63,012 nt of DNA from Chitinophagaceae bacterium (GTDB lineage: Bacteria; Bacteroidota; Bacteroidia; Chitinophagales; Chitinophagaceae), in NCBI GenBank assembly GCA_023251255.1, contig JAHEZD010000019.1, positions 1 to 63,012 on the forward strand, given 5' to 3'. Of this stretch, positions 15,644-34,852 are shown piece after piece. The position numbers were made by a program, and so were the translations under genes. Within the stretch, counting starts at the first letter, position 1, and every line of letters starts with the position of its first letter. The notes below the pieces were generated by a model that saw only the letters and a list, made by a program, of their open reading frames with translations, made no database searches and had not been told where the DNA came from.

Positions 15644-17212
15644 TCAAAAGGTTACTCCCACTACCTTAAGTTTTCGAAGGGTTTCATTGGTAACGGATTC
15701 CAGACATGCTATACATAAAAACCTCTCAGCACGGCTGAATGCCACATAACCTAACCTTGGATAATCCGTTTTCTCATTGTCCCGTTTCGTCTCCCTAATT
15801 GAATGATCTGTTTCAATCCAAAGCAGCAGTTCCTCTTCTGTTTTTGCGATTGCCAGCACCGCTTCAGCTTCCAGGCCTTTAATGGTATGGATATTTGCGA
15901 TAGTGACAACGGTGCTGTCATTATTGTTGCTGAAATCAGCCCTTAAGTTTTCAATCTTCACAGGTAGCCCCACTTTCATTTGCAGGTTAAGCTTACCAGT
16001 AATGAAATTTCCATAACTGTCCTCATCTGTGATTTCACCATTATGGATGGCTTTAAAGATAGATACCGCATGTTTTCTTAAGGTATAGATATTGGTTTGG
16101 TAATGGTCGCAAAACTGAGTCTGGTTCATCTGCATGGTTGAAAGCAATGTATCCTGAATAGCTTTTAATGGTAGAACATTTGTGGCTTTCTTGGGGTTCA
16201 TGTACTGGTTGTTGACAGAAGCAACAATCCTTTTGAATACGTCATTTTTTTTGGCGATGATGCACCTTTTTGAAATCGGGATATTAATGCCTTCACAGCG
16301 GGTGTAGAAATCTTCTTTGATTGATTTGACATCACCAGTCTTTTTTATGAATAGTATGTCTTCTCCTAATTCAGCATCATCAGCAAGGTTCGTCTCCTTC
16401 GAAATTGCTGTCTGCTGGAATTTTATCGAATTGAAATACCTTCCATTGAACTGGTTTAAAAAAGCCACTATTTTTTTTGTTGATCTGTAATTGGAGTTGT
16501 TGATCAGTACTTTGTATCCGTTACTTTCTGCTGCTTTTAAGATGGGGATATTTTTAAATAGCCTTATTGGTGAATCAAAGCTCTGTATGTATTGTTCAGG
16601 GTCTCCAACACAATAGACACGGGTTTTATTTTGCTTTCTGATATTCTCAATAATTGAGAATACATCATTGCCAGAATCCTGGAACTCATCCACAAATAAA
16701 AACTGTAGACGATTGCTTATGATACGGCAAATATCCTTGTTCAACAGGCAATTTTTTGCAATGGAAAGTGTTTGGTCGAATGTGATATACCCGAGTTTAT
16801 TCAGCTTCTTTGTTATTTTCGCTCTAATAATAGCAGCGTCTTCTGGAGTCTTGCTTCTGTCTTCTTTAACCTTCATTTTTTCCACCTTGTCGAAAACATC
16901 ATCAATCCCGCATTGCATAAAAAGTTTCTCCTTTCCAATATCCATTCCTGCCAAGGATGAAAAAGGGATTATGACAAATTTATTAAGGAATGAATGTATC
17001 GTTCCGATAAAAAGGTTCTCCGGGATGGTGATTTTTTTTGCAAGCCTTTTTTGAATATTGCTGGTTGCGGAGTTTGTGTAAGTTATAACAGCCATATAGC
17101 GGCAAGGCAACAAATCGGGTAGTGCCCTAAGGATGGTTTCTACCATATTATAGGTCTTGCCAGCACCTGGTCCTGCAATGATGATTTCTCCCAGTGCTTT
17201 TGCCTTGGCCAT
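15644..17212 (-). CDS. gajB: Gabija protein GajB, UvrD-like helicase
   Basis: The protein is 522 aa with the superfamily 1 helicase motifs in order: Walker A GPGAGKT (residues 14-20), ITYTNSATSNIQKRL, GTIHSFLNKF, DEFQD at 175-179, GDPEQYIQSF, NYRSTKKIV, NIHTIKGLEAEAV and VAFSRAERFL. The 2B subdomain is short, as in GajB. Its ATG shares one base with the gajA stop (TAATG), so translation is coupled. In Gabija, GajA and GajB form a large complex that degrades phage DNA when nucleotide pools fall. Pairing with an OLD-type GajA in this exact order makes the call secure; either protein alone would be ambiguous. Confidence 0.93.
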   Translation of the reverse strand: MAKAKALGEIIIAGPGAGKTYNMVETILRALPDLLPCRYMAVITYTNSATSNIQKRLAKKITIPENLFIGTIHSFLNKFVIIPFSSLAGMDIGKEKLFMQCGIDDVFDKVEKMKVKEDRSKTPEDAAIIRAKITKKLNKLGYITFDQTLSIAKNCLLNKDICRIISNRLQFLFVDEFQDSGNDVFSIIENIRKQNKTRVYCVGDPEQYIQSFDSPIRLFKNIPILKAAESNGYKVLINNSNYRSTKKIVAFLNQFNGRYFNSIKFQQTAISKETNLADDAELGEDILFIKKTGDVKSIKEDFYTRCEGINIPISKRCIIAKKNDVFKRIVASVNNQYMNPKKATNVLPLKAIQDTLLSTMQMNQTQFCDHYQTNIYTLRKHAVSIFKAIHNGEITDEDSYGNFITGKLNLQMKVGLPVKIENLRADFSNNNDSTVVTIANIHTIKGLEAEAVLAIAKTEEELLLWIETDHSIRETKRDNEKTDYPRLGYVAFSRAERFLCIACLESVTNETLRKLKVVGVTF

Positions 17213-19083
17213 TATGCTAGAAATTTTATGCCATCAGAAATATATGTCGGTACTGTAAAGCCCTTGCTGTCCTCCTCCAGATGTAACATTAAGCTATAGG
17301 CGAATTCAGATTTATACTCTTCTACCAAAGCAAAGTATTCATCAATAACAATAGCCTTGGTTCCCAAGTTTTCACAATAGGCCTTTCCTGAATTTGGCCT
17401 GACATCTTTGATTACTTTCAACAAAATAGCCCTCCCTTCACCAGTTTGGTTAAAGGAGATAAGGTCTTTTTCAAAAGTTGTTTGCTGTGTTATGCCAACC
17501 TTTATTTGTTGGACACTAGCATATTTGGTTGCAAGGGAATCTGCACGGTCCTTGGTCTTTGTGTCGGTATCGCTATCTGTCAAAACCAAACATTTTTGGA
17601 AGAACCCATTTTTTATTATCTCCAGAAAATAGCTGAATGCCAAACCGTTTACGTTTATCACACAACAGCTTGATTTTTCCGTTGAATGGTTCGTTATGAT
17701 TTTAAAGAATATAGGCACTAATAACTTTTCTGATATGCCTTCTACCAAAATTATCTTTCTTGAATAAAAAAGGTTGGCATTGACTGCATCGAGATACTTA
17801 TTCAAATACTTAATCTGTTTTTTGCCTAAAGCTGTATCTCCAAATCCGTCCAAAATGTAATGAGAAACAATCCCATTGTCTGTTTCGTATAGCACCACTG
17901 TATTTTCAAAATCGATTTTCGTGGTGATGTGGGTAGAGTGTGAAGTAATAAGCAATTGAATGTCCTTCCTGAATTCTTTTTGTCCTGTGACTTTGATTAA
18001 TGACTCAATGTTGTGTGCAAGATGGTCTTGCAGGTTTGGGTGAAGGTGGGATTCTGGTTCTTCCAGTCCCACAACCCTGAAATAAGCACTCTGTGCCCTT
18101 GTCACATCTTCTATGTATGACAGGACAAGGGAGATAAACAACAGATTGTTACGTCCTGTGCCATTCCTTTCTATCTTTATTGGATTGTCCCCATATATCA
18201 AACTGATTTTCTTAAGTAGATCCGAAACATCTGGTAATGTAAATATCAAATCGACAAGATTAGATGTGTCATCCGTTTTAAGGGAAATTTTATCAAGTTG
18301 GGTAGAAATTCCCTGCTTGATTTCCTGCAAGGATTTATTCTCGTTGATTGCTTTCTGCAGACCAACCAACTGCCCTTTTAGATCCTGGTATTCATTTTCT
18401 TCTTTCGAATTCAAAATCCTGAAAAGCAATTTACTATTATGACTTGCAACCAGTTCTGAGCAGGCATCCCGTAGGGCATCCAAAAGTTCAAATTTCAATT
18501 GGTTGAGATGGTAGGTATTCGCAAGTGTATCGCTGCTGCCACCAAAAATATTGTAGTGGTATTTTGAGATTGGGAAGTTGATCAGGTCAAGTTTTGCAGT
18601 TTCCAATAAAGCGTCAAATACCTCTGATGTATGTTCTTTCTTATAGTCCTCAATAAATTTTCTTTGTTGTTTTAGCTCATCTAAACGGTCGAATTTGGAA
18701 GACGGTGCAAAAACGTAACGCAAAGTTGCTTCTGTGAAAGTTACATTGCTGAACCAGTCCGATATAACTGCCTCCTGGTCATCATTCCAATCGGACAAGG
18801 TAGCTTCAATGGATATTTCCGGAAACTCAATCTTATCAATTGGTATAGAAAAATCAAGTACTTGTTTTTTAAAGTTTACCAGAACGTCATAATTGAAATC
18901 AGATACTTCCAATACACGCCTCTTGAAGAATGAAATATCCTGTCCGAATATCAATCCAATTGAATCGAGCAGGTTGGATTTCCCAATGTTGTTCTCCCCA
19001 ATAATTAACGTTAATGGCTTGAGCTTAATAGAGAATTCTTTAAAGGTTCTGTAATTCTTGATTTCAAGGTTAGATATGTACAT
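17212..19083 (-). CDS. gajA: Gabija protein GajA, OLD-family ATPase with TOPRIM nuclease
   Basis: The protein is 623 aa. The N-terminal ABC ATPase shows FKEFSIKLKPLTLIIGENN with Walker A GENNIGKS (29-36) and the D-loop/Walker B GLEEPESHLHP (E341, E342), then LLITSHSTHI. The C-terminal TOPRIM domain shows ILVEGISEKLL (E448) and LTDSDTD (D503, D505), the metal-binding residues of OLD nucleases. It is upstream of and overlaps gajB by one base. Known GajA proteins are sequence-specific DNA-nicking enzymes whose activity is inhibited by nucleotides. The first gene of the operon begins 272 nt from the divergent beta-helix gene. Confidence 0.94.
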   Translation of the reverse strand: MYISNLEIKNYRTFKEFSIKLKPLTLIIGENNIGKSNLLDSIGLIFGQDISFFKRRVLEVSDFNYDVLVNFKKQVLDFSIPIDKIEFPEISIEATLSDWNDDQEAVISDWFSNVTFTEATLRYVFAPSSKFDRLDELKQQRKFIEDYKKEHTSEVFDALLETAKLDLINFPISKYHYNIFGGSSDTLANTYHLNQLKFELLDALRDACSELVASHNSKLLFRILNSKEENEYQDLKGQLVGLQKAINENKSLQEIKQGISTQLDKISLKTDDTSNLVDLIFTLPDVSDLLKKISLIYGDNPIKIERNGTGRNNLLFISLVLSYIEDVTRAQSAYFRVVGLEEPESHLHPNLQDHLAHNIESLIKVTGQKEFRKDIQLLITSHSTHITTKIDFENTVVLYETDNGIVSHYILDGFGDTALGKKQIKYLNKYLDAVNANLFYSRKIILVEGISEKLLVPIFFKIITNHSTEKSSCCVINVNGLAFSYFLEIIKNGFFQKCLVLTDSDTDTKTKDRADSLATKYASVQQIKVGITQQTTFEKDLISFNQTGEGRAILLKVIKDVRPNSGKAYCENLGTKAIVIDEYFALVEEYKSEFAYSLMLHLEEDSKGFTVPTYISDGIKFLA

Positions 19084-21468: not shown

Positions 21469-22116
21469 ATGGAGGATCATCTCAAAAAATTCAGGGACAG
21501 GTTACGAATAACAATTATACTGTATGTTTTTTCCGAGCCTTTAAACAATGACCCCCATTACTTTTCTGTATTCAGAACCGAAATAAAAATTCAGGCCCTG
21601 GATTTTTTATTGCGTTATCCAGATTTTTTCTCATTAGAACTTCTTGACCTCTACTCTTCCGAAAATCTTAACACAAATGAAATACAGGAAACAATCAAGC
21701 AGATATTCTCTTCAAACGAACCTGTTTTAAGGGTTGAGGAAATGGAGAAATTCTTTCATGGTGCATATGAGAGTATTGATGATGTAATAGCCTTCCTTTC
21801 AAGCATCTCTTTCATTAAATATGAAAGCAAGAGGAGAAGGGATGGGAAAGAGTATGAGAAGCATTACTATTTGACTCACCTGGCAAAGGGAAAGATAGAG
21901 CAGCAACTCACCCAGATTGAATCGGTCAAATGGTATTTGGAAAGATGCTTATTGATTAAAAAATATTTTGATGGTTTCAGTGGTACAGAATTAAAGAAGA
22001 GACAATATAAATATGTCGAGGAATATGCGACTGTCCCATATAAAAGTAAGATTAAACAGGTACAACTGAAAGTTAGGGACTCATTTTATTCAAACTTCAA
22101 TCAAATTTTGGCATGA
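21469..22116 (+). CDS. Winged-helix-like first gene of a three-gene SMC/nuclease system
   Basis: The protein is 215 aa and not recognised by name. The N-terminal half is helical. Residues about 90-150 (VEEMEKFFHGAYESIDDVIA, then SSISFIKYESKRRRDGKEYEKHYYLT) look like a winged helix with a basic wing. The C-terminal 60 residues are helical and lysine-rich. There is no enzyme motif. Its stop overlaps the start of the SMC-like gene by 4 nt (ATGA). Small proteins in this place occur as LmuC/DdmB in Lamassu/Ddm systems and as the middle component of ABC-three-component systems. By analogy it may bind DNA or bridge the ATPase to the nuclease. Confidence 0.65.
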   Translation: MEDHLKKFRDRLRITIILYVFSEPLNNDPHYFSVFRTEIKIQALDFLLRYPDFFSLELLDLYSSENLNTNEIQETIKQIFSSNEPVLRVEEMEKFFHGAYESIDDVIAFLSSISFIKYESKRRRDGKEYEKHYYLTHLAKGKIEQQLTQIESVKWYLERCLLIKKYFDGFSGTELKKRQYKYVEEYATVPYKSKIKQVQLKVRDSFYSNFNQILA

Positions 22117-24269
22117 ATATTTTCGACTATAACAAATTTGTCAAGACTGTACATCAATCCTTTACAGATTCAGCTACTGAGCAGCAGGTACATGATTGGC
22201 TAAACCTAGAAGATGATTACAACAAAGACAGTCCGGCATCGTTAGGCAAATCGCTTTCAATATCAAGAATCAAACTCAAAGGAAAGAAGAACAATCTAGA
22301 CATCATAGATTATGATGAACCATTTCAAAAGGGCCTTACTGTCTGGATCGCTGATAATGGGCAAGGAAAATCAAGTATATTCAAAGTAGTAAAATATTGC
22401 CTTACGGGTTCCAACAGTATCAAAAAAGACGTCAAGTCGTGGCTTAAGGAATTATTGTTGGAATTCAAGATAGGAGAAAATACTTTCACCATTTTCATCG
22501 ATAAAACTTCGAGGGTTTCTGAAGGGGCTCTTTACAGTTTTTCCATCGACCAGTTTTTACTTTTAAAAGAAAGCGGAAAAATTCAGGGGATAGAGAACCA
22601 GGAACTGTTTGTTTTCAAAGGGGATGATGCATTGACCAATCTAATGCAGACTTTTTTCTTCAATCAATTTTCCTACTATTCATTGAAGTATACCCAAAAA
22701 AGCTCAGGCAAAGATGACCTGTCATTGAAGACGTCAAACCTTAGCTGGTCAACATATTTCAAAACAATCTATCTGGAATCTTCCGAACACGAGTACCTTT
22801 TCTTGAATAATGATTATGGCAAGCAAGGAACGAAAATCTTTGAGATGATACTTGGGCTGCGGCTGACTTATCCTATCAACAGGCTCACGCTTATGATGAA
22901 CCATGTTGATGAGGAAATTGCAAAACTTAAATTGGTAAGGGAAAGCATTGAAAGAAGCAGTTCTATAAATAGGCCTCAACTGGAAAAGGAGTTACAGGCA
23001 TTGAATGAAGAGATTAAAGGCCTCACTTCGATCAAACAGAATGAGTCGAATATAAAATCATTGGTTGACGAACAGTTGGATATACAAGCCTCTATAAACG
23101 ACAAGTTGGCCAGCCATAGGTCTATACAGTCAGAATACCAAAAAGCCATCAGCAAAAAGAGAAAGACGGAAGAGGAAATCTATAACTTTGAAAGTGACCT
23201 TAAGGTAACAGATATAGAGGTGTTACGCCTTGAGAAGCAGGTCTTGAATATGCAAACCTACAGGGATGTCGAAGGGTTTTTTACCAATCTTGAAATCAAG
23301 GCATGTCCGCATTGCGAGAACAGTATTTCGGAGGAGAAGCTTGAGAAGGAAAAACACCAACACGTATGTGGTCTATGCGGTTCAAATGAATTGACTACAA
23401 AGATCGATATTGATGAGATCAATCAAAAAATTGAATCTATGATCCATGATATTGATAATTATAAAAAAGGGATTAGGACAACTGAACTTACTATTTTGAA
23501 GTTGAAGTCCAGCCTGGACTCCCAAGAAAAGAACATCCAACAATTATATGGAGAATTTGTAAAAGGGCCTTCTGTTGCGAATGAGCAGGAGAGGCTTGAT
23601 CAGATAAGCAATGAGCTCAACAGAATCCAGCAGGAAAGGTTACAACGCAAGAAAGATGAAGAGGCCTATGACCTGATGAAACAGAAAAGGGCAGTGCTGG
23701 AATATAGGATCCAAGAATTAAGCAAAGCAGTTGAGATGCCAGATACGAGACAAAGTGAAATAAGTGTCAATGAATTAAAGAAAGCAGTTTTCAAACACGC
23801 AATAGATATTCTTAAACGACAAAGGCAAGACCTCAACCTTGAGCTCTTGAATAAACTGGAGGGGCTAATACTGAATGAGATACAGGCATTTGGATTGAAG
23901 AATATAGCAAGAGCAACTATAACAAACGATTACAATATCTCGTTTTTGCAAAATGGTGAAAACCTCCTGTTTGATGAATTAAATGAAAGCGAAAAGTTAA
24001 GGGTGAAATTTGCCTTCTATTTAAGTTTGATCCAGTTGGATATAGAATACAAGTTGGGAAGGCATCCTCGTTTTTTGATCATAGATTCACCAGGTAGCGA
24101 AGAAATAAGTAAAAATAATCTGCATGGATTGTCAAGCATTTTTGCTCAAGTGAATAAACGTTTTGGGAATGAACTGCAAATTTTCATAGGAACTACCTTG
24201 CAGGAGTTCTCAGGGGCTACATCCCCCGAACAGACATTTTTAAAGAAAACTGACGAATATATTTTTTGA
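22113..24269 (+). CDS. SMC/Rad50-like ABC ATPase with zinc ribbon at the coiled-coil apex
   Basis: The protein is 718 aa. Walker A is ADNGQGKSS (residues 80-88), with alanine where the first glycycle residue usually is. Long coiled coils cover roughly 270-395 and 425-560. Between them are two CxxC pairs, C398-C401 and C419-C422, separated by 17 residues, so one chain can hold a zinc by itself, unlike the single CxxC of a Rad50 hook. The C-terminal half has LNESEKLR (623-630) in the place of the LSGG signature and a Walker B IIDSPGSEE (D658) with serine after the aspartate. This head is like those of Lamassu LmuB and ABC-three-component ATPases. It overlaps both neighbours (ATGA before, TGATG after), so the three products probably form one complex. 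Confidence 0.8.
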   Translation: MNIFDYNKFVKTVHQSFTDSATEQQVHDWLNLEDDYNKDSPASLGKSLSISRIKLKGKKNNLDIIDYDEPFQKGLTVWIADNGQGKSSIFKVVKYCLTGSNSIKKDVKSWLKELLLEFKIGENTFTIFIDKTSRVSEGALYSFSIDQFLLLKESGKIQGIENQELFVFKGDDALTNLMQTFFFNQFSYYSLKYTQKSSGKDDLSLKTSNLSWSTYFKTIYLESSEHEYLFLNNDYGKQGTKIFEMILGLRLTYPINRLTLMMNHVDEEIAKLKLVRESIERSSSINRPQLEKELQALNEEIKGLTSIKQNESNIKSLVDEQLDIQASINDKLASHRSIQSEYQKAISKKRKTEEEIYNFESDLKVTDIEVLRLEKQVLNMQTYRDVEGFFTNLEIKACPHCENSISEEKLEKEKHQHVCGLCGSNELTTKIDIDEINQKIESMIHDIDNYKKGIRTTELTILKLKSSLDSQEKNIQQLYGEFVKGPSVANEQERLDQISNELNRIQQERLQRKKDEEAYDLMKQKRAVLEYRIQELSKAVEMPDTRQSEISVNELKKAVFKHAIDILKRQRQDLNLELLNKLEGLILNEIQAFGLKNIARATITNDYNISFLQNGENLLFDELNESEKLRVKFAFYLSLIQLDIEYKLGRHPRFLIIDSPGSEEISKNNLHGLSSIFAQVNKRFGNELQIFIGTTLQEFSGATSPEQTFLKKTDEYIF

Positions 24270-26065
24270 TGGTTATTGATGCTGACATAATGAAGCTTTT
24301 TGCTGGGACCGACAAGTTCCAGCAGGTGCTTTTTTTGGACAATTTTCACGAAAGAATAGATATTGATTTGTTTGAAGGGAAAGTCATCGAGGATTTCCTA
24401 TTCGGTGTGGCTAACACTGGTGACATCTATATCAAGAGGGCAGCTATAATACTGCTTGGCGATTTATATATTATGGATAAGGCCACAAATATTTACAGGT
24501 TTTTGGGTCTTTTGAAGGAAGTTATAGACAAAGAAAATGACAGCTTTCTTGTGGCAACATCATTGAGGTATTTCATTTTGGTATCTCCTTCATATGATGA
24601 TAAAATTATCGGATTACTCAAGGATTTAACCGATAATGACAATGCGGATATAGCAAGCGAATCCTTTTATTCACTTGGCATTATAGAATTGGCTGAAATA
24701 GATAATCAGTCATCTATCGAAGGATTTATCAACGCTTTGCAACATGCAAAAAAATATTTCTTAGAAGCGGCAGCCGTTGTTGAGAACAGGACAGATGCCC
24801 TTTTTATTTCTGCTGTCATATCTTTTTTGGAAGCCACTATTTCTAATGATATTGCACAGGCATCAGAAAAATTGCAACGTGTTAAGGAGATTTTCATTGC
24901 AAGACAGATATATGAATTGGAAGTGGTCTATGTGGAGTTTGACTTTATGTTCTACAGAATTATTGAAAAAATAGCTGCCATATTGAATAGGCTTTCAAAA
25001 ACAGGGGAATGGATTGAATACAAAACAGAACTGCTACAAATAATAAGGATAAACAAGCAAATTGAAAAGCTAAAAAGCACAGAAGGGAAAAATGCCATTG
25101 TTTACAATAAGGTGTATAATTCTGCAATGGTCCATGTTTTGGACATAGCATATGGGATTAATCTTAAGAATGACAAGAGGCGGATTGAAATAATCAATAT
25201 AGAAGGTTACAACACTGAACTCATTGATTTTTCAAATTATCTACTAACACTTCTGCCAAATACAGGCAAGGGTATTGATGACATGCAATTGTTTGCAACT
25301 CTTATCAGTATTTATGGCAAGGATGGGGCTTTAGAGCTTTATAACAAAATAAAAGATGATCCCTCCAAAATAGTTGAGGCAATTCAAAATGCACAAAAAA
25401 GCAATGAAACATCAATATCACATTTTGTTACAGGCTCCTTAAATGGCCATAATATCTATCATTCTTTGAAGTTGTCGTTAAAAGAAAAACTTCCAAGTTA
25501 TCCCATCGATAAATTTGAAACTTTCTTTGCAGTGGTCGAAGAATTGATACGTTATGTGTTGATGAGTATTTCGGGTAGCAGCAAGAGTGACTTCCTATTT
25601 CTGTATTCTTCTGAAGAAGGTGGCAAAGGCCAATTGGCGATAGAAAATGATTTACAGGACCATCTCTTCAACAAATTAAAGTTCACAAAACTTGCTTATG
25701 GGTTCGAGCATGAAAAAGCAAAATTTGTAGATGGTGGACGTGTTGATATTGTTTTTAAAACAGATTTAATAACCATCCCAATAGAACTGAAGAAATCATC
25801 CAATCAGGTTACAATACAAAGGATTGAATCGGATTATATGGCACAGGCACAGACTTATGTATCGGGCCATGATCAAATTGGCATTTTTGTTCTGCTTGAT
25901 TTATCGGATAACCCATCGCAAGTGAATCCTAATATTAAGGACCTATTTAATATCCATCATCTTGCCCCTTCTAGTGGACTGACAATCGGCCATCCAGACT
26001 ATGTAATATCCATAGTAATCCCTGGAAACAAAAGATTGCCCAGTAGTAAAAGTAAATACACTTGA
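24269..26065 (+). CDS. Helical-repeat protein with C-terminal PD-(D/E)XK nuclease, third gene of the system
   Basis: The ATG at 24269 shares one base with the upstream TGA; a TTG three bases earlier is less likely. The protein is 598 aa. Residues 1-420 are helical with a HEAT-like rhythm (IKRAAIILLGDLY, ATSLRYFILVSPSYDDKIIGLL, ASESFYSLGIIELAE). The C-terminal 140 residues form a nuclease: LAIENDLQDHL, GGRVDIVF (D493), then IPIELKK (E506, K508), followed by a basic/aromatic helix MAQAQTY. This D-x12-E-x-K order is the PD-(D/E)XK core. The likely role is an effector that cuts DNA when the SMC protein is engaged. It does not resemble the Cap4-type LmuA that I know, so the system is a variant or a different class. 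Confidence 0.75.
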   Translation: MVIDADIMKLFAGTDKFQQVLFLDNFHERIDIDLFEGKVIEDFLFGVANTGDIYIKRAAIILLGDLYIMDKATNIYRFLGLLKEVIDKENDSFLVATSLRYFILVSPSYDDKIIGLLKDLTDNDNADIASESFYSLGIIELAEIDNQSSIEGFINALQHAKKYFLEAAAVVENRTDALFISAVISFLEATISNDIAQASEKLQRVKEIFIARQIYELEVVYVEFDFMFYRIIEKIAAILNRLSKTGEWIEYKTELLQIIRINKQIEKLKSTEGKNAIVYNKVYNSAMVHVLDIAYGINLKNDKRRIEIINIEGYNTELIDFSNYLLTLLPNTGKGIDDMQLFATLISIYGKDGALELYNKIKDDPSKIVEAIQNAQKSNETSISHFVTGSLNGHNIYHSLKLSLKEKLPSYPIDKFETFFAVVEELIRYVLMSISGSSKSDFLFLYSSEEGGKGQLAIENDLQDHLFNKLKFTKLAYGFEHEKAKFVDGGRVDIVFKTDLITIPIELKKSSNQVTIQRIESDYMAQAQTYVSGHDQIGIFVLLDLSDNPSQVNPNIKDLFNIHHLAPSSGLTIGHPDYVISIVIPGNKRLPSSKSKYT

Positions 26066-26205: not shown

Positions 26206-26387
26206 ATGAACAGTAAACATTTATTCGATCAAATTAAAGATTATGTTCTCTAGTTGGCGGAAGGGATAAAAATCTTTAATAAACTGAACCTGACCGATGA
26301 TGCAAACTTTGCAGAAGATTGTATTGCCGCTTGCTGAATTCAGTATATGGGTATGAACTGAAAAATATTAACCGCATTTTGAACTGA
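26206..26387 (+). pseudogene. Decayed SMEK-like domain remnant
   Basis: From ATG 26206 the frame reads MNSKHLFDQIKDYVL, meets TAG at 26251-26253, continues LAEGIKIFNKLNLTDDANFA, meets TGA at 26335-26337, and continues in another frame as LLNSVYGYELKNINRILN to a TGA at 26385. The pattern LNLTD...AED...LLN.VYGY.L.N.N fits my memory of the N-terminal SMEK domain found in defence-associated proteins. With two stops and one frameshift it is inactive. It shows that another defence gene once stood between the SMC unit and the caspase gene. The rest of 26066-26537 holds nothing recognisable. Confidence 0.45.
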
Positions 26388-26537
26388 ATGCGAATATTTT
26401 TTGAAGTAATATGCCAGTTTCTTTTCCACCTGTTCAGATACGTATCGCATAACTATAAAAGTAATTTTTAAATTTTTCAAATACCCCTTCAAAAGAAACC
26501 TGTGCAGAATCTGGTGAAGTTTTTTATTAGGACGACA

Positions 26538-27389
26538 TTAATCAGAAAGTCCCCATAATATCAATCCGGCTATTGCAGCGAGTACAAGTCCATCAGAACT
26601 AGAACTATTAGCTTTCGGCCGTGAAGTAATATATTGAGGCCTTTCTATTTCTGCAAAAGGGATAAAATTAGCAGAAACGATTGCAAGGGGCACTTCAAAA
26701 TTCCCGTCATGGAATGTAATACATGGCAACTGAGGCTCATTGGCTTCTCTTAAACTTTTCTTGGTATTGTCCAAAGCCCTGCTCACCGATACCGGATAAT
26801 AACCTGAAGCAGTTTTTTCTGCAAATAAGCATTGCAATAAAGCCAGTGTGAACTCTCCGCCTCTTCCATTTCTTTCATCATAGGCAAACTCACCTTCGGT
26901 GGTTGAATGCAAGATCATTCTTCCCGGGCCTGTACCCAAGATATAACGATCAAATAATTCCCGTGCTTCTGAATAACCATCAGCATACTGCCATTTCTCA
27001 ACTTCACCTGGTATTCCGCTAATCGTTGGTAAATAACAACGGCAAGCATCTATTATAATCAACTGACGGGGGCTTACAGGATTGAAAAGATTACAGTCAA
27101 TTACATTATAATCCTTAAAGCATACCAGATTATTCTTCCATTCATCCATGAAACCATGCCCCGAAAAATAAATAAATACATAATCAGCAATTGCGTTGTT
27201 GATTGCATCCTGTACATCCCAAGTAGAAGGGTTATCCAGTATTTCAATTTCATTGGCGTACCATGCACCTCCACGGGGCGATTGCAGGTAATCATTCATG
27301 TTGTACAAATCATTCACAACACCAGGAAGCCGTTGCTTTCCTGATCCCGGTGCACCCATCAATATGGCTCTCCTTACTGGTTTGTACAT
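26538..27389 (-). CDS. Caspase-like cysteine protease (peptidase C14) with C-terminal membrane anchor
   Basis: The protein is 283 aa. AILMGAPGSGKQRLPGVVND is the first strand and following turn of a caspase fold and contains a GSGK that mimics a P-loop. The catalytic dyad is visible: H78 in YFSGHG and C116 in IIIDACR. A later RMILHSTTEGEFAYDE and GGEFTLALLQ match the family. After a serine-rich linker the last 20 residues (DGLVLAAIAGLILWG) form a single membrane helix, so the protease is probably tethered. Caspase-like proteases act as effectors in several bacterial defence systems, cutting cell proteins or activating pore formers. The upstream 187-aa gene, 77 nt away, is the obvious candidate partner. 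Confidence 0.85.
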   Translation of the reverse strand: MYKPVRRAILMGAPGSGKQRLPGVVNDLYNMNDYLQSPRGGAWYANEIEILDNPSTWDVQDAINNAIADYVFIYFSGHGFMDEWKNNLVCFKDYNVIDCNLFNPVSPRQLIIIDACRCYLPTISGIPGEVEKWQYADGYSEARELFDRYILGTGPGRMILHSTTEGEFAYDERNGRGGEFTLALLQCLFAEKTASGYYPVSVSRALDNTKKSLREANEPQLPCITFHDGNFEVPLAIVSANFIPFAEIERPQYITSRPKANSSSSDGLVLAAIAGLILWGLSD

Positions 27390-27466
27390 TGTCTACGCTT
27401 GATAGATGCAATTTACTGAAATATTGCCATAGAAATAATTGAATTGGGAACTGGTGTGATAGTCAA

Positions 27467-28030
27467 TCAATTGGCAATATCCAATCTTTCATCTAATCCC
27501 AAAAGCAATACCCCATTCCTGAAAATGCAAGATCCCCCTTCTGTATCTGTTTCCCTAACTAGAAAAGGACTGAAGTGGCAATTATCAATGCCCTTAAAGG
27601 AGTCCTGACAAATTGGGATGTCTTCCAAGAAAGGGCATTTTGAAAGTGTATTATCTATCAGTTCCTTGACCACAAGGCTGCATGACATTAAAAAATTGAA
27701 GCTCTCCTCCATGTGACTGCAATGAGCAGCTTTTCCATGAATGTGTGTGGCATCCATATACCTCACTGTTCCTGTACCATATTTTACTAGCATTCCCTTC
27801 CAGAACCGCTCATCAAAATCATCAGCAGGATGAAAAAGCGTTCGACCACCCTGATCGGAAGTTATGTTGTTTAAATCGTACTTCATAATATTATAAGCGA
27901 ACAGGAACACATCATTTTTGTCCAGATGCTTTTCGGCCAATTCCATATTCATTTTGCAATGAGCCATTGATTTTTCTAAACCATCCTGCAAATAATCCGC
28001 TTCATTAGTACCACTTAATAAATCTTCCAC
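27467..28030 (-). CDS. Unrecognised protein upstream of the caspase gene
   Basis: The frame opens with GTG at 28030 (an in-frame TGA lies just before it); the first ATG is at 27967 (MAHCKMNMELAEKHL) and may be the true start. The product is 187 or 166 aa, cysteine- and histidine-rich (SKCPFLEDIPICQ, HIHGKAAHCSHMEES), with no signal peptide or clear membrane segment. I recognise no family and see no gasdermin-like pattern. It is divergent from the SEC-C nuclease gene by 134 bp and likely co-transcribed with the caspase gene. It could be a sensor, substrate or inhibitor of the protease; none is shown by the sequence. Confidence 0.55.
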   Translation of the reverse strand: MEDLLSGTNEADYLQDGLEKSMAHCKMNMELAEKHLDKNDVFLFAYNIMKYDLNNITSDQGGRTLFHPADDFDERFWKGMLVKYGTGTVRYMDATHIHGKAAHCSHMEESFNFLMSCSLVVKELIDNTLSKCPFLEDIPICQDSFKGIDNCHFSPFLVRETDTEGGSCIFRNGVLLLGLDERLDIAN

Positions 28031-28164: not shown

Positions 28165-31100
28165 ATGGCAAAAATAGGACGAAATGACCCCTGCCACTGC
28201 GGAAGTGGTAAAAAATATAAAAAGTGCCATTTGCCACAGGAAAATAAGAGTACTACACTGGCAAATACCTCGCAATCAGCACCAACCAATTTTGATAATT
28301 TAATAACTTCCAATAGTTCTGTGCAAATATTGGGCGTATTAGGTGCATTACAGCTTCATCCTGAAAACCACGGCAGAAATGTCCGTTTTGAACAATTGTG
28401 CCTTGAAACACTACGTCATTATAACCCTAACGATGAAAAACCAAAAGCTTCGTGGGAAAAATTAAAACAGGTAATTGAACATTATACCGACGGCGCAGCA
28501 ATGGAAGATCCACTCTCTAACGCTTTTACAGAGATCGCTATTTTTGAGCAAGGTAATTATATTGTCTATCCAGGTATATATGATGGCTTCACTGATATTT
28601 TGAACCTGCTTACAGAGTCCATTTTCCTTGTTAAACACAATCTTGACAGCGGTTTTATAAAGAAGGTGCGGGATGCAATAGGTTTACTTTTGTTCATGAG
28701 CCAAAATGTGGCGCATGAAGCCGGACACCAACCTTTCATTTACCAGGAAGGAGAATCAGGTGATATTGAGTTTCCGACTTATGATACAACAGCTCAATAC
28801 ATTGACGCCATCTACTTTGCCAGAGCGTATTTAAAGCAGATATGCGATGCACATAGGTACGATATCGGCATTTTGGAAGACTTTATAGTGCAACCGGGTA
28901 TGGAAGAACTTCAAAATGATAATCCAGACGAAAATATAGTCAACTTCAAGCCGCTTGTTACGGTAGGTGATGGTGTTCTTCTTTATATGCCAACTGGTAT
29001 CCTGAACTCACTGATAACTTATGTCTATCAAAAGGCAAAAGAACACAAATGTTACGAAGAGTTAATGGAATTATTATATGAAAGGCAATTCCATCTTACT
29101 CGAGTGGCTCTTGCCAAAACAGGCTGGTTGGCAACAGATATCAAACTCCCCGAATTAAAAAAGCCGCTCCCTATCAAGGAAGCTGTTTTTCAGTTCGACA
29201 ACCAGAAACTTGCCTATATATGCTACATTAAAACGGGCGAATCACCAGTCCCTTTTAGAGAAAACATTTCCTCCGTAAAGTCTCCTGACCCATACGAAGA
29301 TAGGACTACTGAAGTTGTACAATTTCTAAGCACTCTTGAAGACGCACAGCCATTTGGCGTATTTTGTTTGTACGTTATAGGTGAAACAGCAAATGACTAC
29401 TACTTTATGTGGTCTAAGCCTTCCGCTGGTAATCAATCATTAGCTTTAAAATACCGCGAACTTTGGACAATAACCCACTCTTCCCATGTAAACAGCCTAA
29501 CACTTTGGAAATTTGCAAAATGTTATAGCAGAACAAATGAATTAGCAAGGGTAATGGCGATGGGAGGTGCAATGGATGCCTATGCCATTTACCGTGAAAA
29601 TCATGGAAGCTTACTTCATTCAGATGAAGAGAATCCCTTGGGTGGTATGTTTATGATCGTTAATGGCAGTTCTGATGATTTCAGGAGAGAAGTGCAAAAA
29701 CAACAACATGAACACGCTGTACCTATATTCTACAAGGGAAAGATAGCTAATGCCAAAGTAATCCGATACAAAGATTATGCGCCTATTTACATCGAAAGAG
29801 AAGTCAGTAATGCCTTCCAGATAGTTATTGAAAACTACAAGATGCCTATATGGCTCACTAACCCGCAAACCAAAGCAGCGGAAGAAAGCTGGGGTACTTA
29901 TACTTGCGAAGCGGTCGCTTTCTGGTTGAATAAAATGGAAGCGTTGCTAGCGCCCTATCTAAATGAACAAAAACTGATTCAGTTTGAAATTGAAATTCAG
30001 GTAGCCGATGAATTGATGAAGGCTGAACAATTTATAATTAAGGAAGTAGCATTGGACGACATTAAAATTGCCTCTGAAATTGTCCCGCCAGTAATACGCA
30101 TAACTATTCCCTTCGATTACATATATGCCGTCATGCTTTCTGACAACAGTGCCGACAAGATATTAATGAAAGCTGTTTTGAAGGGTATAACGGACTACAT
30201 AAAGGCATCTGGAAATGCTACAGAATTGAACAGTGATATTATTGATGGAATAATATTTCAGGCACTGCAGCCAACTGGAGCTAAAATGCTTCTTTTTAGC
30301 GATGCATCCAGCAATATTAAAATGGATGATCGCAATCTGCCACCTATGCGATATATCCACGATACAGATGTTTCTTATGTCCTGGACAATCTTGTTAGCT
30401 ATCTTCCACAGGGTTATGTGGTCCCCAATAACATACCTGATAAAAAAGATAAAATACAACTCTGTGACGATATAGTAACAGCACTAATTGATCAAATCAC
30501 CAACAAACTTGCTTCATTCGATGGCGCAAGGTTATTGGAATGGTTAATTAAGCTTAACGAAAAGTGCATCCAGCTTAGGGAATTTAGAGAGATTGTTATC
30601 CCGGCCAAGATTGCCTGCTTCAGTGATTTTCAGACAGAAGTGGAACAGCTATTGGATAGCGAAAAAAACATTGTCATTACCGCTCACGCCATCAGAACCT
30701 TGATTGAGTTTGTAAGCTTAAATATCCCCAAAGGCACCAAATGGCCGAATTTTGATGATGTAGACGAGTTGCTGGCACTGACAAACCAGCTTACAGAATG
30801 GGGCGCTCTGAGCGAGGCTATGCGGATGGGTATCGACGATCCTGAAATGGGATTATTGCCATCCGGACGGATAGGCACTGATAAGACGGTTGAACGCGAA
30901 GCCTTAAAGCCTTATGCTGTTGCAAAAACTGAAAGTGCCATATTTAAAAACATTGAAGATTTTGAAAGCAATTATGTATCCGTCAAAAAAACAGGCGATG
31001 CGGTGGAAACTGCAGAATCAAAAGCACTTGATGCTGCTCACAAGGCAGAATTTGGAATAACGATTACTGTATTATCAAAAATTATAGGGGCAATGGTAAA

Positions 31101-31977
31101 TGAAGGTTTCGCCAACGCACAATCGTGTATGGAAATAGAGGAATCTGCATTAATCGGTATTTTATCCAAAATAGAAGGCGTAACCGCAGATAACATTGGT
31201 ACTGCATTGCGCTTATTAACTCTACTGGAGCGTAAAAGCATAGGTACGCCTCCTGACGGATATACAGCAATTGATATTTTTCCCTGGAGATATAATAGGC
31301 CCATCTCTTATATCAGACGGCCATTAGCTAAATTGCAAAAGGGTGATGGTGCCTACTATTATTATGGATATAGGCATCTAATGCAGTTTATCGACAACCT
31401 GTTTTACCTGCTGTATTCAAGCAAACTTCCTAGTGTTAAATCCGAAGAAATGAAAAGCTGGCTTGCTGCAATTTCAGGTGATAAAGGCAATCCATTCAGG
31501 GAAGCAGTAAAAAAATGGTTTGAGGAACACTCCGATTATGAAGTTATACCGCATGAAGTCACAATGGATAAAGGCGTATCCGAAATGCACATAGAAACCG
31601 AAAAGCATTATGGCGACATTGACCTGCTCTTAATTGATCACAGGAAGCTTATAATATATCCAATAGAATGTAAGAATATTCAGGGTGGAAGGAATATACA
31701 TGAAATGAAAGTTGAAATGGATGATTATCTTGGAAGGGATGGAAAGGACAAGAAAGCAAAGATGCGCAAGCATGTTGAGCGTAATGATTGGTTGAACGCA
31801 AACAAAGAAGCGTTGAAAAATCTTGTACCAGATGCGGAGAAATACACTATTAAATCATTCATTTTAACAGCCGACGAAATTCCGCTTCGCTATCTTAAAA
31901 AGGATGACCTTCCTCTACCAGTAAAATCATTCTCATTTCTGCGAAAGAACGGATTGTCTTATTTATCAGACTTATAA
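28165..31977 (+). CDS. Large SEC-C motif protein with C-terminal PD-(D/E)XK nuclease
   Basis: The protein is 1270 aa. It begins with a SEC-C zinc motif, DPCHCGSGKKYKKCH (C10, C12, C21, H22). About 1000 residues of mixed, mostly helical sequence follow with no ATPase, helicase or membrane motif that I can see. Near the end, YGDIDLLLID (D1153) and IYPIECKN (E1168, K1170) form a PD-(D/E)XK nuclease core. The family is not one I can name. A lone, very large, nuclease-tipped protein in a defence island is a good candidate single-gene defence system; SEC-C motifs usually bind proteins or nucleic acid. The start is supported by the motif itself, which lies at the very N-terminus. Confidence 0.75.
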   Translation: MAKIGRNDPCHCGSGKKYKKCHLPQENKSTTLANTSQSAPTNFDNLITSNSSVQILGVLGALQLHPENHGRNVRFEQLCLETLRHYNPNDEKPKASWEKLKQVIEHYTDGAAMEDPLSNAFTEIAIFEQGNYIVYPGIYDGFTDILNLLTESIFLVKHNLDSGFIKKVRDAIGLLLFMSQNVAHEAGHQPFIYQEGESGDIEFPTYDTTAQYIDAIYFARAYLKQICDAHRYDIGILEDFIVQPGMEELQNDNPDENIVNFKPLVTVGDGVLLYMPTGILNSLITYVYQKAKEHKCYEELMELLYERQFHLTRVALAKTGWLATDIKLPELKKPLPIKEAVFQFDNQKLAYICYIKTGESPVPFRENISSVKSPDPYEDRTTEVVQFLSTLEDAQPFGVFCLYVIGETANDYYFMWSKPSAGNQSLALKYRELWTITHSSHVNSLTLWKFAKCYSRTNELARVMAMGGAMDAYAIYRENHGSLLHSDEENPLGGMFMIVNGSSDDFRREVQKQQHEHAVPIFYKGKIANAKVIRYKDYAPIYIEREVSNAFQIVIENYKMPIWLTNPQTKAAEESWGTYTCEAVAFWLNKMEALLAPYLNEQKLIQFEIEIQVADELMKAEQFIIKEVALDDIKIASEIVPPVIRITIPFDYIYAVMLSDNSADKILMKAVLKGITDYIKASGNATELNSDIIDGIIFQALQPTGAKMLLFSDASSNIKMDDRNLPPMRYIHDTDVSYVLDNLVSYLPQGYVVPNNIPDKKDKIQLCDDIVTALIDQITNKLASFDGARLLEWLIKLNEKCIQLREFREIVIPAKIACFSDFQTEVEQLLDSEKNIVITAHAIRTLIEFVSLNIPKGTKWPNFDDVDELLALTNQLTEWGALSEAMRMGIDDPEMGLLPSGRIGTDKTVEREALKPYAVAKTESAIFKNIEDFESNYVSVKKTGDAVETAESKALDAAHKAEFGITITVLSKIIGAMVNEGFANAQSCMEIEESALIGILSKIEGVTADNIGTALRLLTLLERKSIGTPPDGYTAIDIFPWRYNRPISYIRRPLAKLQKGDGAYYYYGYRHLMQFIDNLFYLLYSSKLPSVKSEEMKSWLAAISGDKGNPFREAVKKWFEEHSDYEVIPHEVTMDKGVSEMHIETEKHYGDIDLLLIDHRKLIIYPIECKNIQGGRNIHEMKVEMDDYLGRDGKDKKAKMRKHVERNDWLNANKEALKNLVPDAEKYTIKSFILTADEIPLRYLKKDDLPLPVKSFSFLRKNGLSYLSDL

Positions 31978-32188: not shown

Positions 32189-33634
32189 ATGCCTATCCCT
32201 TATTCTACAAATACCTTGCAGCCAAAAGGGAAACTTGAAATAGAAGAAGTTAAACCCGGTTTTTATAGAACAATGTACATCCCGCCAGTTGAAGTGCTTC
32301 CTAATCCTAACTCAAAGCCCGAGGAGTTTAAAAGGCCAATTGTAGACATCGACCAAAAAGAAAAGGTATTGACCATCTATCCATTTCAAGTGGGTGGTTT
32401 TTTTTCCATGAAGAATAAGTATTCTAAACTTTTTATCATCAGTTTTGACCTCGAGTGGTATGCTGATAATTTCTTGCCCCCTGATGAAGACAAAATACAA
32501 ACTCTGCTATCTTATGTATTGCCTGAGGCATTCATTGATGATTACAATTTTGGATTTGGTTTCCGAAAGAATTACAAACCAATATTGTCAATGTTGGAAG
32601 GGTTTGATATATCAAAATTGCACATTACTGTAAAAGGAGCAACAAGATTTGATTTGCAGAAAAAGGAGGCATCCATAAAGAAATCGGATTTTGAAAGAAT
32701 GTCTAAAGCTATCAATAAAATTACGCAGCGATTTCAAAAGGCATCGTTCAAGCTGAAAAGGGATACTGTAAGTGATATTTTTTCGCAGTTGTTGAATAAT
32801 GCAACTGTGGATAACACAAACGACACAATTGCTTCTGAGCTTGCAAAGACAATTGGTAACTCTACTAGGTTTATGCTCAATGGAGCAACCAAGAAAGAAC
32901 AATCCGAAGCCATTGAAGTGCTTAAACAGAACAGTAAGAAAATCATTGCTGAACAACCCGGTGAATTTTTAAAGCTACGCAATGAAATAGAGTTGGTATC
33001 ATTGGAAGAACTGATTAGTAAGTTCGAAATCATGTTGGATAAAAAGTTATCCGAGTCCGAATGGCAAAGGCTATTTGATGAGAACCCTTTCATACTGACC
33101 ATGGCATTCGGAACGCCGGTAATCAATGTACATGCACAGGCATCTGTTGGTGGAACCAAACTTTCTGGTAGTGGAAATAAAATAGCAGATTATTTGGTCA
33201 AGAACAGCGTTACCAATAACGCCGCACTTGTGGAGATAAAGACACCTTCCACAAAGTTGATCAATTCCAAAGTATACAGGGGGGGAGTATTTGCACCTTC
33301 AAATGAAGTGACAGGTGCAATCAATCAAATCCTTGACCAGATACATCATTTCCAGACGAGCGTTAACACATTAAAGGCGGAGAGCAGGGAATACAACCTT
33401 GAATCTTATTCGGTTCAAGCTATCCTGATTGCAGGTAGGTCAGTGGAGGGATTGGATGAGAAGAAATCATTCGAATTATTTAGGGGTAATTCGAAAAACG
33501 TACAAATTGTAACATTCGATGAATTATTGATGAAACTGAAGAATCTCTATTCATTTCTTAACTTGACCAGTAAGCCCTTAACGAAACGTTCGACTCAGGA
33601 ATCACTTCCCTCTTACGATGAATTACCCTTTTGA
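32189..33634 (+). CDS. sduA: Shedu defence nuclease SduA (DUF4263)
   Basis: The protein is 481 aa. The C-terminal DUF4263 domain has ESEWQRLFDENPFIL, then KIADYLV (D334) and ALVEIKTP (E349, K351), and a long helix GAINQILDQIHHFQ, which together are the Shedu nuclease signature. The N-terminal 200 residues (FYRTMYIPPVEVLPNPN, VKGATRFDLQKKEASIKK) form the variable sensor part. Shedu acts alone as a tetramer that nicks DNA near free ends. There is no partner gene close by, which agrees with a one-gene system. Confidence 0.9.
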   Translation: MPIPYSTNTLQPKGKLEIEEVKPGFYRTMYIPPVEVLPNPNSKPEEFKRPIVDIDQKEKVLTIYPFQVGGFFSMKNKYSKLFIISFDLEWYADNFLPPDEDKIQTLLSYVLPEAFIDDYNFGFGFRKNYKPILSMLEGFDISKLHITVKGATRFDLQKKEASIKKSDFERMSKAINKITQRFQKASFKLKRDTVSDIFSQLLNNATVDNTNDTIASELAKTIGNSTRFMLNGATKKEQSEAIEVLKQNSKKIIAEQPGEFLKLRNEIELVSLEELISKFEIMLDKKLSESEWQRLFDENPFILTMAFGTPVINVHAQASVGGTKLSGSGNKIADYLVKNSVTNNAALVEIKTPSTKLINSKVYRGGVFAPSNEVTGAINQILDQIHHFQTSVNTLKAESREYNLESYSVQAILIAGRSVEGLDEKKSFELFRGNSKNVQIVTFDELLMKLKNLYSFLNLTSKPLTKRSTQESLPSYDELPF

Positions 33635-33991
33635 AACAACATTTACATTCCGATATTTGACCTTACGAAATTGAAGAGTGTCTCCAATTGCTTAAATCAC
33701 TTTCTAACACGATTGTACGCTAGATCAGAACATCTGCAAGTATATAGCAAGTTGATTGTAAAAGGAAACCCTTCATTAGTTTGCGACTGGAATAGTTGTT
33801 GATCGATCAGAAAACCTGCTTCATGGATAGTCGGAATAAGATAAGTTGAGAATGGAGTGTTTCGCGTGTTCGGACATTGGTAGCGGTAATGTGCTGCTTA
33901 CTTAGTTGCCGTTTTGAATTTGCAGGTAAGTGGGTACAAAGTATTGCGCTGGATAATGTCACAACGTTATATTAGTGTTATAAGGAAAGAT
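33635..33991. other. Intergenic region without a gene
   Basis: All frames are broken by stops and no repeat or hairpin of note was found. An AAGGAAAG purine run lies just before the ATG at 33992 and supports that start. Confidence 0.5.
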
Positions 33992-34852
33992 ATGAAAACT
34001 ATGTCCGATAAAAACGAACTCGACTGGGAGGACTATGAAGCCATCACCAAATACATCTATGGTGCACTCGGTGCCCAGTACGGCGTTAAGGTCAAAGGTT
34101 ATGGACGCAATTGCAAGATCAAAGGAAAATCCGGGTTGGAGCATCAGGTAGACGTGCTGACTGAACAGTTCGATGGTGGGCGACAACTGCTTACGGCGAT
34201 TGAATGTAAATACTGGAAGAAAAAAGTAAACAAGGACATTGTTATGAAGCTTTCCGAAACCATGCTGGATTCGGGTATAGCTATTGGTATCATCGTTTGT
34301 AAAATGGGCTTTACAAAAGATACGCGAACCTACGCTGAGTACAAAGGGATAAAGCTTGTCGAATTGAGGGAAGCCGAGGAAAATGATGTGGACTTCAAAA
34401 GGACAATTGAGGTTGGAACTTTGGATCTGAACATCAAAATAATGGTCTCGCGCGGGAATGTTACAAGCATCGATCTTGGTAGCACTATTATCACTGGTGA
34501 AAAGGAAATTATGGCCATGTACTATGCCGAACTGCACGATCCTCATGGAAGGACGGTCCCTTTTGGCACATACTTGAAGGCATTCTCAGAAGAGGTGCAA
34601 CATCGAGGAGAACTGTTGAAAATCAGTACTATAGATTATCCACTTAGTCCCAAGCTGTTCTGGAAGCTCTCGGACAAGGAAATCCCTGTTGAAAAAATAT
34701 CAATCACCGGATTTTTGATAAAGATCGATAGAAGCTCTATAAGGTCTTTTTTATTGACCGATCAGGTTTGGCTGATCATGAAAGAGTTGTTCGATAAAAG
34801 GAAACTAACCTTGTCAAAGAGTGGATTGATATGGAACCTACCTCTAGACTAA
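33992..34852 (+). CDS. Mrr-like restriction endonuclease
   Basis: The frame is open to a TTG at 33914; ATGs exist at 33956 and 33992, and the latter is chosen because an AAGGAAAG ribosome-binding-like run precedes it. The product is 286 aa. Residues 10-120 form an Mrr-type PD-(D/E)XK domain: ITKYIYGALGAQYG, GLEHQVDVL (D54), TAIECKYWKK (E71, K73) and GIAIGIIVCKMGFT. The C-terminal 150 residues are beta-rich and unrecognised. Mrr enzymes cut modified DNA, while other members with this core act in unrelated systems. No methyltransferase is nearby, which fits a type IV or stand-alone role. Confidence 0.78.
   Translation: MKTMSDKNELDWEDYEAITKYIYGALGAQYGVKVKGYGRNCKIKGKSGLEHQVDVLTEQFDGGRQLLTAIECKYWKKKVNKDIVMKLSETMLDSGIAIGIIVCKMGFTKDTRTYAEYKGIKLVELREAEENDVDFKRTIEVGTLDLNIKIMVSRGNVTSIDLGSTIITGEKEIMAMYYAELHDPHGRTVPFGTYLKAFSEEVQHRGELLKISTIDYPLSPKLFWKLSDKEIPVEKISITGFLIKIDRSSIRSFLLTDQVWLIMKELFDKRKLTLSKSGLIWNLPLD

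Follow-up and report, generated by a model that had tools for sequence, protein, structure and literature searches.

Three overlapping genes at positions 21469–26065 of a 63,012-nucleotide stretch of Chitinophagaceae DNA (contig JAHEZD010000019.1, hereafter the window) raise the question of whether they encode a new defence system or a branch of a known one. Judged by sequence, the operon is a predicted Lamassu-type defence system and belongs, as an unusual branch, to a known system and not to a new one. We consider it likely that it belongs to a widespread and already modelled lmuC-lmuB-lmuA branch of the three-gene Lamassu family, including the sensor and effector mechanism discussed below. 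The support counted for this reading comprises matches to PADLOC profiles, the C-B-A gene order, the kinship of LmuB, conserved residues, a domain swap in LmuA, the position within a defence island and the published behaviour of Lamassu.

Operon structure and family assignment

The operon consists of three ORFs, all located on the forward strand and each overlapping the next. An ORF analysis of the window confirmed the coordinates, strand and overlaps of 1–4 nt given in an earlier note on this DNA. The features are listed in Table 1. The lmuC/lmuB junction is a 4-nt overlap (ATGA, 22113–22116). The lmuB/lmuA overlap is 1 nt with the ATG start at 24269 and 4 nt with the TTG start at 24266, which gives a LmuA of 598 or 599 aa, respectively. 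Upstream of the TTG, the 603-codon lmuA frame stays open for only some four codons; thus, a much earlier start is ruled out and the third protein begins at the junction. The GC-content of the three operon genes is 34.7–37.5%, compared with 52.5% and 46.5% in two genes nearer the window ends.

Table 1. Features of the operon and of the surrounding defence island in the window. Conservation is given in alignment rows.
Feature	Position	Strand	Evidence
lmuC, 215-aa winged-helix small subunit	21469..22116	+	ORF; PADLOC LmuC model PDLC03872, 7.3e-59
lmuB, 718-aa Rad50/SMC-like ATPase, two CxxC motifs between coiled coils	22113..24269	+	PADLOC PDLC03864, 9.5e-149; hhalign
LmuB Walker A, ADNGQGKSS, residues 80–88	22350..22376	+	N82, G85, K86 in 38/38 rows
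LmuB zinc motif CPHC...CGLC (C398, C401, C419, C422)	23304..23378	+	all four Cys in 38/38 rows
LmuB ABC signature LNESEKLR, residues 623–630	23979..24002	+	Ser626 in the window, codon 23988–23990
LmuB Walker B, DSPGSEE, residues 658–664	24084..24104	+	D658, E664 in 37/38 rows; S659 in 33/38
lmuA, 599-aa effector, N-terminal alpha-solenoid and predicted C-terminal PD-(D/E)XK-type nuclease	24266..26065	+	PADLOC PDLC03853, 5.2e-71; model
LmuA N-terminal alpha-solenoid, residues 1–440, constant module	24266..25585	+	helical model; N-module profile finds L059/L060
LmuA predicted C-terminal nuclease module, residues 441–599, exchangeable	25586..26062	+	predicted strands and motif; C-module profile misses L059/L060
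LmuA PD-(D/E)XK motif, G491-R492-x-D494 ... E507-x-K509	25736..25792	+	R-D-E-K in 33/41 rows
Terminator-like hairpin past the operon (weak)	26373..26392	+	consensus scan: 6 sites against 3.0 expected
Gabija GajB	15644–17212	-	PADLOC 7.5e-135
Gabija GajA	17212–19083	-	PADLOC 9.9e-242
Caspase-like gene	within 26538–28030	-	PDLC02987 6.2e-7, partial match
Upx-like, 1270-aa protein	28165–31977	+	Upx match, residues 559–1244, 1.5e-41
Shedu SduA	32189–33634	+	2.8e-138, near full length
ATPase, candidate defence family PDC-S27	36172–37602	+	2.1e-202, whole length

All three proteins matched curated Lamassu models of PADLOC-DB 2.0.0 (2023) over nearly their full length, with alignments covering residues 5–208 of 215 and profile positions 10–212 of 220 for LmuC, residues 5–718 of 718 and positions 4–657 of 657 for LmuB, and residues 44–598 of 599 and positions 104–655 of 655 for LmuA. 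The homologues that were scanned matched the same three models (LmuB 38/38, LmuC 32/32, LmuA 10/10). The PADLOC definition of Lamassu comprises LmuB, an adjoining LmuA effector and, for type II, an adjoining LmuC, and all of these are present in the operon. The earlier note had presented the locus as an undescribed variant; this claim does not hold, as the PADLOC models already fit and the layout is widespread. The note had named full-length matches to one described subtype as the finding that would speak against novelty. The matches come close to this, with the initial 103 of the 655 positions of the LmuA profile unmatched. We make no claim of first description for the branch or for the phosphorylase version described below, the literature searched being openly licensed papers.

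Other libraries were less informative. Pfam gave nothing convincing for the three window proteins, and NCBIfam contained no useful family for them, the LmuB-ASRP match (4.1e-10) reaching 38.9 bits against a cut-off of 300 bits. The PDB sequence search with LmuB listed Rad50 heads and coiled coils, including the archaeal Rad50 structure 3aux (E 2.4e-6), among the best 60 of 186 matches; nothing useful was among the matches listed for LmuA and LmuC. Fold searches with the predicted LmuC and LmuA models listed generic winged-helix and alpha-solenoid chains. No Lamassu entry was among the listed matches of the sequence and fold searches, and this was counted against the main reading, although its absence from the fold searches is uninformative.

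Conserved positions were read from alignments A4–A7, chosen locus subsets that comprised, in addition to the window, 40 LmuA, 37 LmuB, 31 LmuC and 44 LmuA rows. Apart from the residues in Table 1, R630 and G649 of LmuB are invariant in 38/38 rows and Q689 is kept in 37. LmuC has twelve invariant residues in all 32 rows (R13, F46, R49, P51, P85, G98, A99, W155, Y156, Q179, Y186 and I195). The earlier note had called the ATPase motifs atypical, and Walker B indeed reads D-S instead of D-E in 33 of the 38 LmuB rows. In LmuB generally, this glutamate is replaced by glutamine, according to the accessible part of PMC10586767; the canonical residue is thus lost in the window branch as in other LmuB proteins, but the substitute differs. 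The same part of that source describes a zinc-hook CPxC motif in many, not all, Lamassu LmuB proteins, and the CPHC...CGLC motif of the window agrees with this. At signature position 626, Gly is found in 36 rows, Ser in the window only and a gap in the remaining one of 38. The serine may alter the ATPase behaviour of this LmuB copy and was counted against the main reading.

The LmuA effector and exchange of its C-terminal module

The structure model of LmuA (pLDDT 78.1, pTM 0.56) and the alignments divide the protein into two modules, and W249 in the first of them is invariant in 41/41 rows. The second is a candidate nuclease by its motif, its predicted strands and weak Pfam matches in 3 of 45 homologues; the window LmuA itself gave no nuclease match in Pfam. 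This basis for the nuclease was counted against the main reading. Several proposals of the earlier note hold up, namely a winged helix, helical repeats, a PD-(D/E)XK motif at the C-terminus and a logic resembling Lamassu and ABC-3C. Among the key residues that it listed, K86 of Walker A and D658 of Walker B are exact; numbering from the TTG turns E506 and K508 into E507 and K509, which form the triad together with D494.

The putative nuclease site occurs in several versions. R492-D494-E507-K509 is present in 33 of 41 rows, a GE(I/V)D...IEAL variant in six and another domain in two. These two are the LmuA proteins of the Planctomycetota loci L059 (7854–10109) and L060 (7841–10084), where a PNP_UDP_1 domain (Pfam E 7.7e-20 and 4.2e-18, respectively) replaces the nuclease. 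Their N-terminal parts of about 400 residues match the PADLOC LmuA model at 1e-20 and 7e-25. Both proteins are found by an N-module profile from which L059 and L060 had been omitted (1.1e-20 and 1.8e-24, respectively), and both are missed by a C-module profile at E up to 10. Among 100 shuffled controls, the lowest E-values were 1.1 for the N-module profile and 0.31 for the C-module profile. The phosphorylase swap on a kept solenoid thus identifies the solenoid as the constant part of LmuA and the C-terminus as the exchangeable effector. Since the solenoid stays when the C-terminal domain is swapped in the two Planctomycetota, it is probably a docking platform.

The GE(I/V)D...IEAL variant, in which the usual lysine of E-x-K is missing, was found at the LmuA C-termini of L048, L049, L051, L052, L054, L055 and L057. 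The lysine may have been relocated, or the domain may be inactive. The variant was defined by position, as 4 of 41 LmuA rows contain the letters IEAL by chance at another place. In a quick tree (LG+G4), in which long branches were flagged and effector labels were assigned manually (PD-(D/E)XK as the default), the variant forms one group of seven LmuB rows (SH-aLRT 99). A larger group of 12 rows (SH-aLRT 100) unites these seven with the window and four rows from Bacillota.

Relation to textbook Lamassu and proposed mechanism

The window system shares with ABC-3C and textbook Lamassu systems, such as V. cholerae DdmABC, three genes and a homologous LmuB with a zinc motif. It differs in gene order, which is A-C-B (effector, MC, ABC ATPase) in the textbook systems and C-B-A in the window branch, and in the place of the effector module, which is N-terminal in the former and C-terminal in the latter. 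The accessible part of PMC10586767 describes the Lamassu LmuA as an N-terminal effector followed by variable C-terminal docking domains, refers to LmuC as a "middle component" from its operon position and includes nucleases among the known effector types. Trypsin-like protease fusions to LmuA are reported in the part of PMC12799240 that was available. The presence of LmuC beside LmuB and LmuA resembles Lamassu type II, defined in PADLOC and in the available text of PMC8565338 as LmuA and LmuB with an additional LmuC; according to the latter, a Janthinobacterium type II system was phage-protective when tested.

Canonical regions from the same phylum served as controls: L115 encodes an alpha/beta hydrolase-CTD8 protein, MC4 and LmuB, and L119 and L120 encode CTD9, MC5 and LmuB. 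These are the three of seven canonical-type regions that were assigned by domain matches; L117 was assigned by ORF sizes, L116 and L121 were left unassigned, and the two upstream ORFs of L118 had no Pfam match. Comparison of the LmuB family with the canonical LmuB set of the same phylum gave an hhalign probability of 99.8 (E 2.3e-28, 564 columns). No profile relation was found between the LmuC family and the MC4/MC5 set of five proteins (hhalign probability 0.4). Neither an MC domain (E up to 10, a search in which L115, L119 and L120 matched) nor a CTD was found by Pfam in the window proteins. The features of Pfam-defined ABC-3C (CTD1-12/MC1-8), namely the MC domain, the CTD on an effector with an N-terminal enzyme and the gene order, are absent from the operon. 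Because LmuC is unrelated to MC4/MC5 by profile and LmuA has no CTD, shared descent with textbook Lamassu is shown for LmuB alone, which was counted against the main reading. The system can be classed as Lamassu by its putative sensor and by curated models, and its other two subunits fail the Pfam-defined features of ABC-3C. It would represent a cross-phylum Lamassu branch that is already in profile libraries and departs from the textbook A-C-B layout.

Two readings take these differences further. Tentatively, and with somewhat less than even confidence, the operon can be regarded as an inverted Lamassu, in which a Lamassu-type SMC sensor is combined with unrelated coupling parts, i.e., a LmuC with a winged helix of the PadR-like kind and a solenoid at the N-terminus of LmuA that carries swappable C-terminal effectors. 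If true, these effectors would be the canonical PD-(D/E)XK nuclease, the GE(I/V)D...IEAL variant and the nucleoside-phosphorylase domain of Planctomycetota, and the switch would be structurally unlike the solved Lamassu complexes. It is more doubtful that the operon represents a separate SMC-based defence class, with only the LmuB-like ATPase in common with Lamassu, LmuC and LmuA recruited independently and their names positional. The unrelated LmuC profile, the Pfam CTD and MC domains confined to the canonical controls and the different gene order would fit such a class; however, PADLOC curates all three proteins under Lamassu names, LmuB is clearly homologous to canonical LmuB, and missing sequence similarity, which for LmuC was assessed by profile against MC4/MC5, is compatible with a common fold.

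Under the Lamassu-family reading, a LmuB dimer with Rad50-like heads and a zinc apex would, together with the winged-helix LmuC as a bridge or regulator, keep LmuA silent via its N-terminal alpha-solenoid. LmuB with LmuC would sense abnormal structures in the DNA of a phage or plasmid that is replicating, whereupon LmuA would be released or clustered. The C-terminal PD-(D/E)XK nuclease of the freed LmuA could then cut DNA, and the infection would abort or the plasmid would be lost. The operon, the profile-based family assignment, the conserved motifs and layout and the swapping of the C-terminal module while the solenoid stays constant are directly supported, and every step past the operon architecture is one that we infer for this branch. 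Release and tetramerisation of LmuA in a Cap4-type Lamassu are described in the available part of PMC12409362 (addendum), and Lamassu is presented as an abortive infection system in that of PMC10586767. The module exchange predicts that the effector is held and freed by the solenoid, which would act as the switch in place of a C-terminal docking domain. With the phosphorylase, a nucleotide-targeting effector would sit on the solenoid platform, and this domain may deplete nucleotides; the accessible part of PMC11249213 reports that the PNP effector of Detocs cleaves ATP and that Lamassu displays 10 different effectors.

Wadjet (JetABCD) also has an SMC-like ATPase and a nuclease sharing one operon. 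The window system differs in having three genes, and no Jet model was among the PADLOC matches of its proteins up to E 10; identity with Wadjet was rejected because no Jet match was found. A Wadjet-like mode of action, in which foreign DNA is recognised by the SMC complex and is the sole target of LmuA cleavage, leaving the cell unharmed, is unlikely in our estimate: the nuclease and the SMC-like ATPase in the same operon would suit it, but the exchange of nuclease for phosphorylase on the same solenoid favours a diffusible toxic effector over a selective DNA cutter, and the published abortive behaviour of Lamassu also argues against it.

Distribution and genomic setting

A scan of a species-level genome collection with the LmuB profile (alignment A2) found 67 loci, a sample that by its design covers LmuA where LmuB is present. 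In 59 of them, profiles from alignments A1–A3 placed LmuC, LmuB and LmuA on one strand in this order. Each protein is a single ORF in 49 of these loci, and 35 of the 49 permit a 4-nt LmuC/LmuB overlap like that of the window, with distances measured to the nearest possible start codon and not to annotated starts; in the other 10, at least one protein is split across several ORFs. The ordered loci belong to at least eight phyla: Pseudomonadota (34), Actinomycetota (9), Bacteroidota (6), Bacillota (4), Planctomycetota (2), Chloroflexota, Myxococcota and Acidobacteriota (one each), with one locus lacking a phylum. As the C-B-A order recurs in 59/67 loci and the 4-nt overlap is available in 35/49, the overlapping arrangement is more than chance, and a chance overlap of the genes was rejected.

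The script found no such order in eight loci. L052 was recognised by eye as a sixtieth C-B-A locus, the divergent LmuA of which had escaped the LmuA profile. At L058 (5180–10004, Chloroflexota), lmuA is convergent on the opposite strand and adjoins a small helix-turn-helix-like gene, and L097 gave no LmuC match. L100 and L109 begin at the contig start, L111 stops at the contig end, and L112 and L113 contain LmuB in fragments.

A tblastn search of plasmid records found LmuB in 29 records and LmuA in three. Six plasmid regions were examined (four via LmuB, two via LmuA), and five have the LmuC-LmuB-LmuA order, namely L041 from Sphingomonas and L042, L043, L044 and L046 from Streptomyces. The sixth, on the Rhodococcus opacus plasmid pROB02, has a LmuA-like gene (L045, 4609–6402), and neither LmuB nor LmuC was detected within its 12 kb. 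Phage records contained no match, and a viral-contig scan with the single LmuB protein likewise gave none. Among 395 genomes of the window's phylum, the LmuA model PDLC03853 matched the window and gave eight partial matches, three of which were confined to the C-terminal nuclease region; PDLC03864 had matches in 95 genomes, mostly short and weak.

The PADLOC profile search of the window placed the operon in a defence island that also contains Gabija, Shedu, caspase-like and Upx-like genes. A Rad50-like complex that serves housekeeping DNA repair and has an accessory nuclease, which the resemblance of the LmuB heads to archaeal Rad50 would suggest, is very improbable and was rejected, since LmuB is missing from all 58 other relatives of the window genome that were searched, is patchily distributed over phyla, occurs on plasmids and is encoded here within a defence island.

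The Gabija pair is located directly upstream of the T9SS-like gene of the island and the Lamassu operon, on the strand opposite to the operon. The caspase-like gene is followed by a gene for a 187-aa protein with a weak PDC-M33C match (0.0024), and the two (26538–28030, reverse strand) possibly form a two-gene unit. The 1270-aa Upx-like protein has an N-terminal motif that we take to be a SEC-C-like zinc motif. On the flanks of the island, an 826-aa protein (10398–12878, reverse strand) and a 312-aa protein (33914–34852, forward strand) had no PADLOC match at E up to 0.01; the latter appears Mrr-like by eye.
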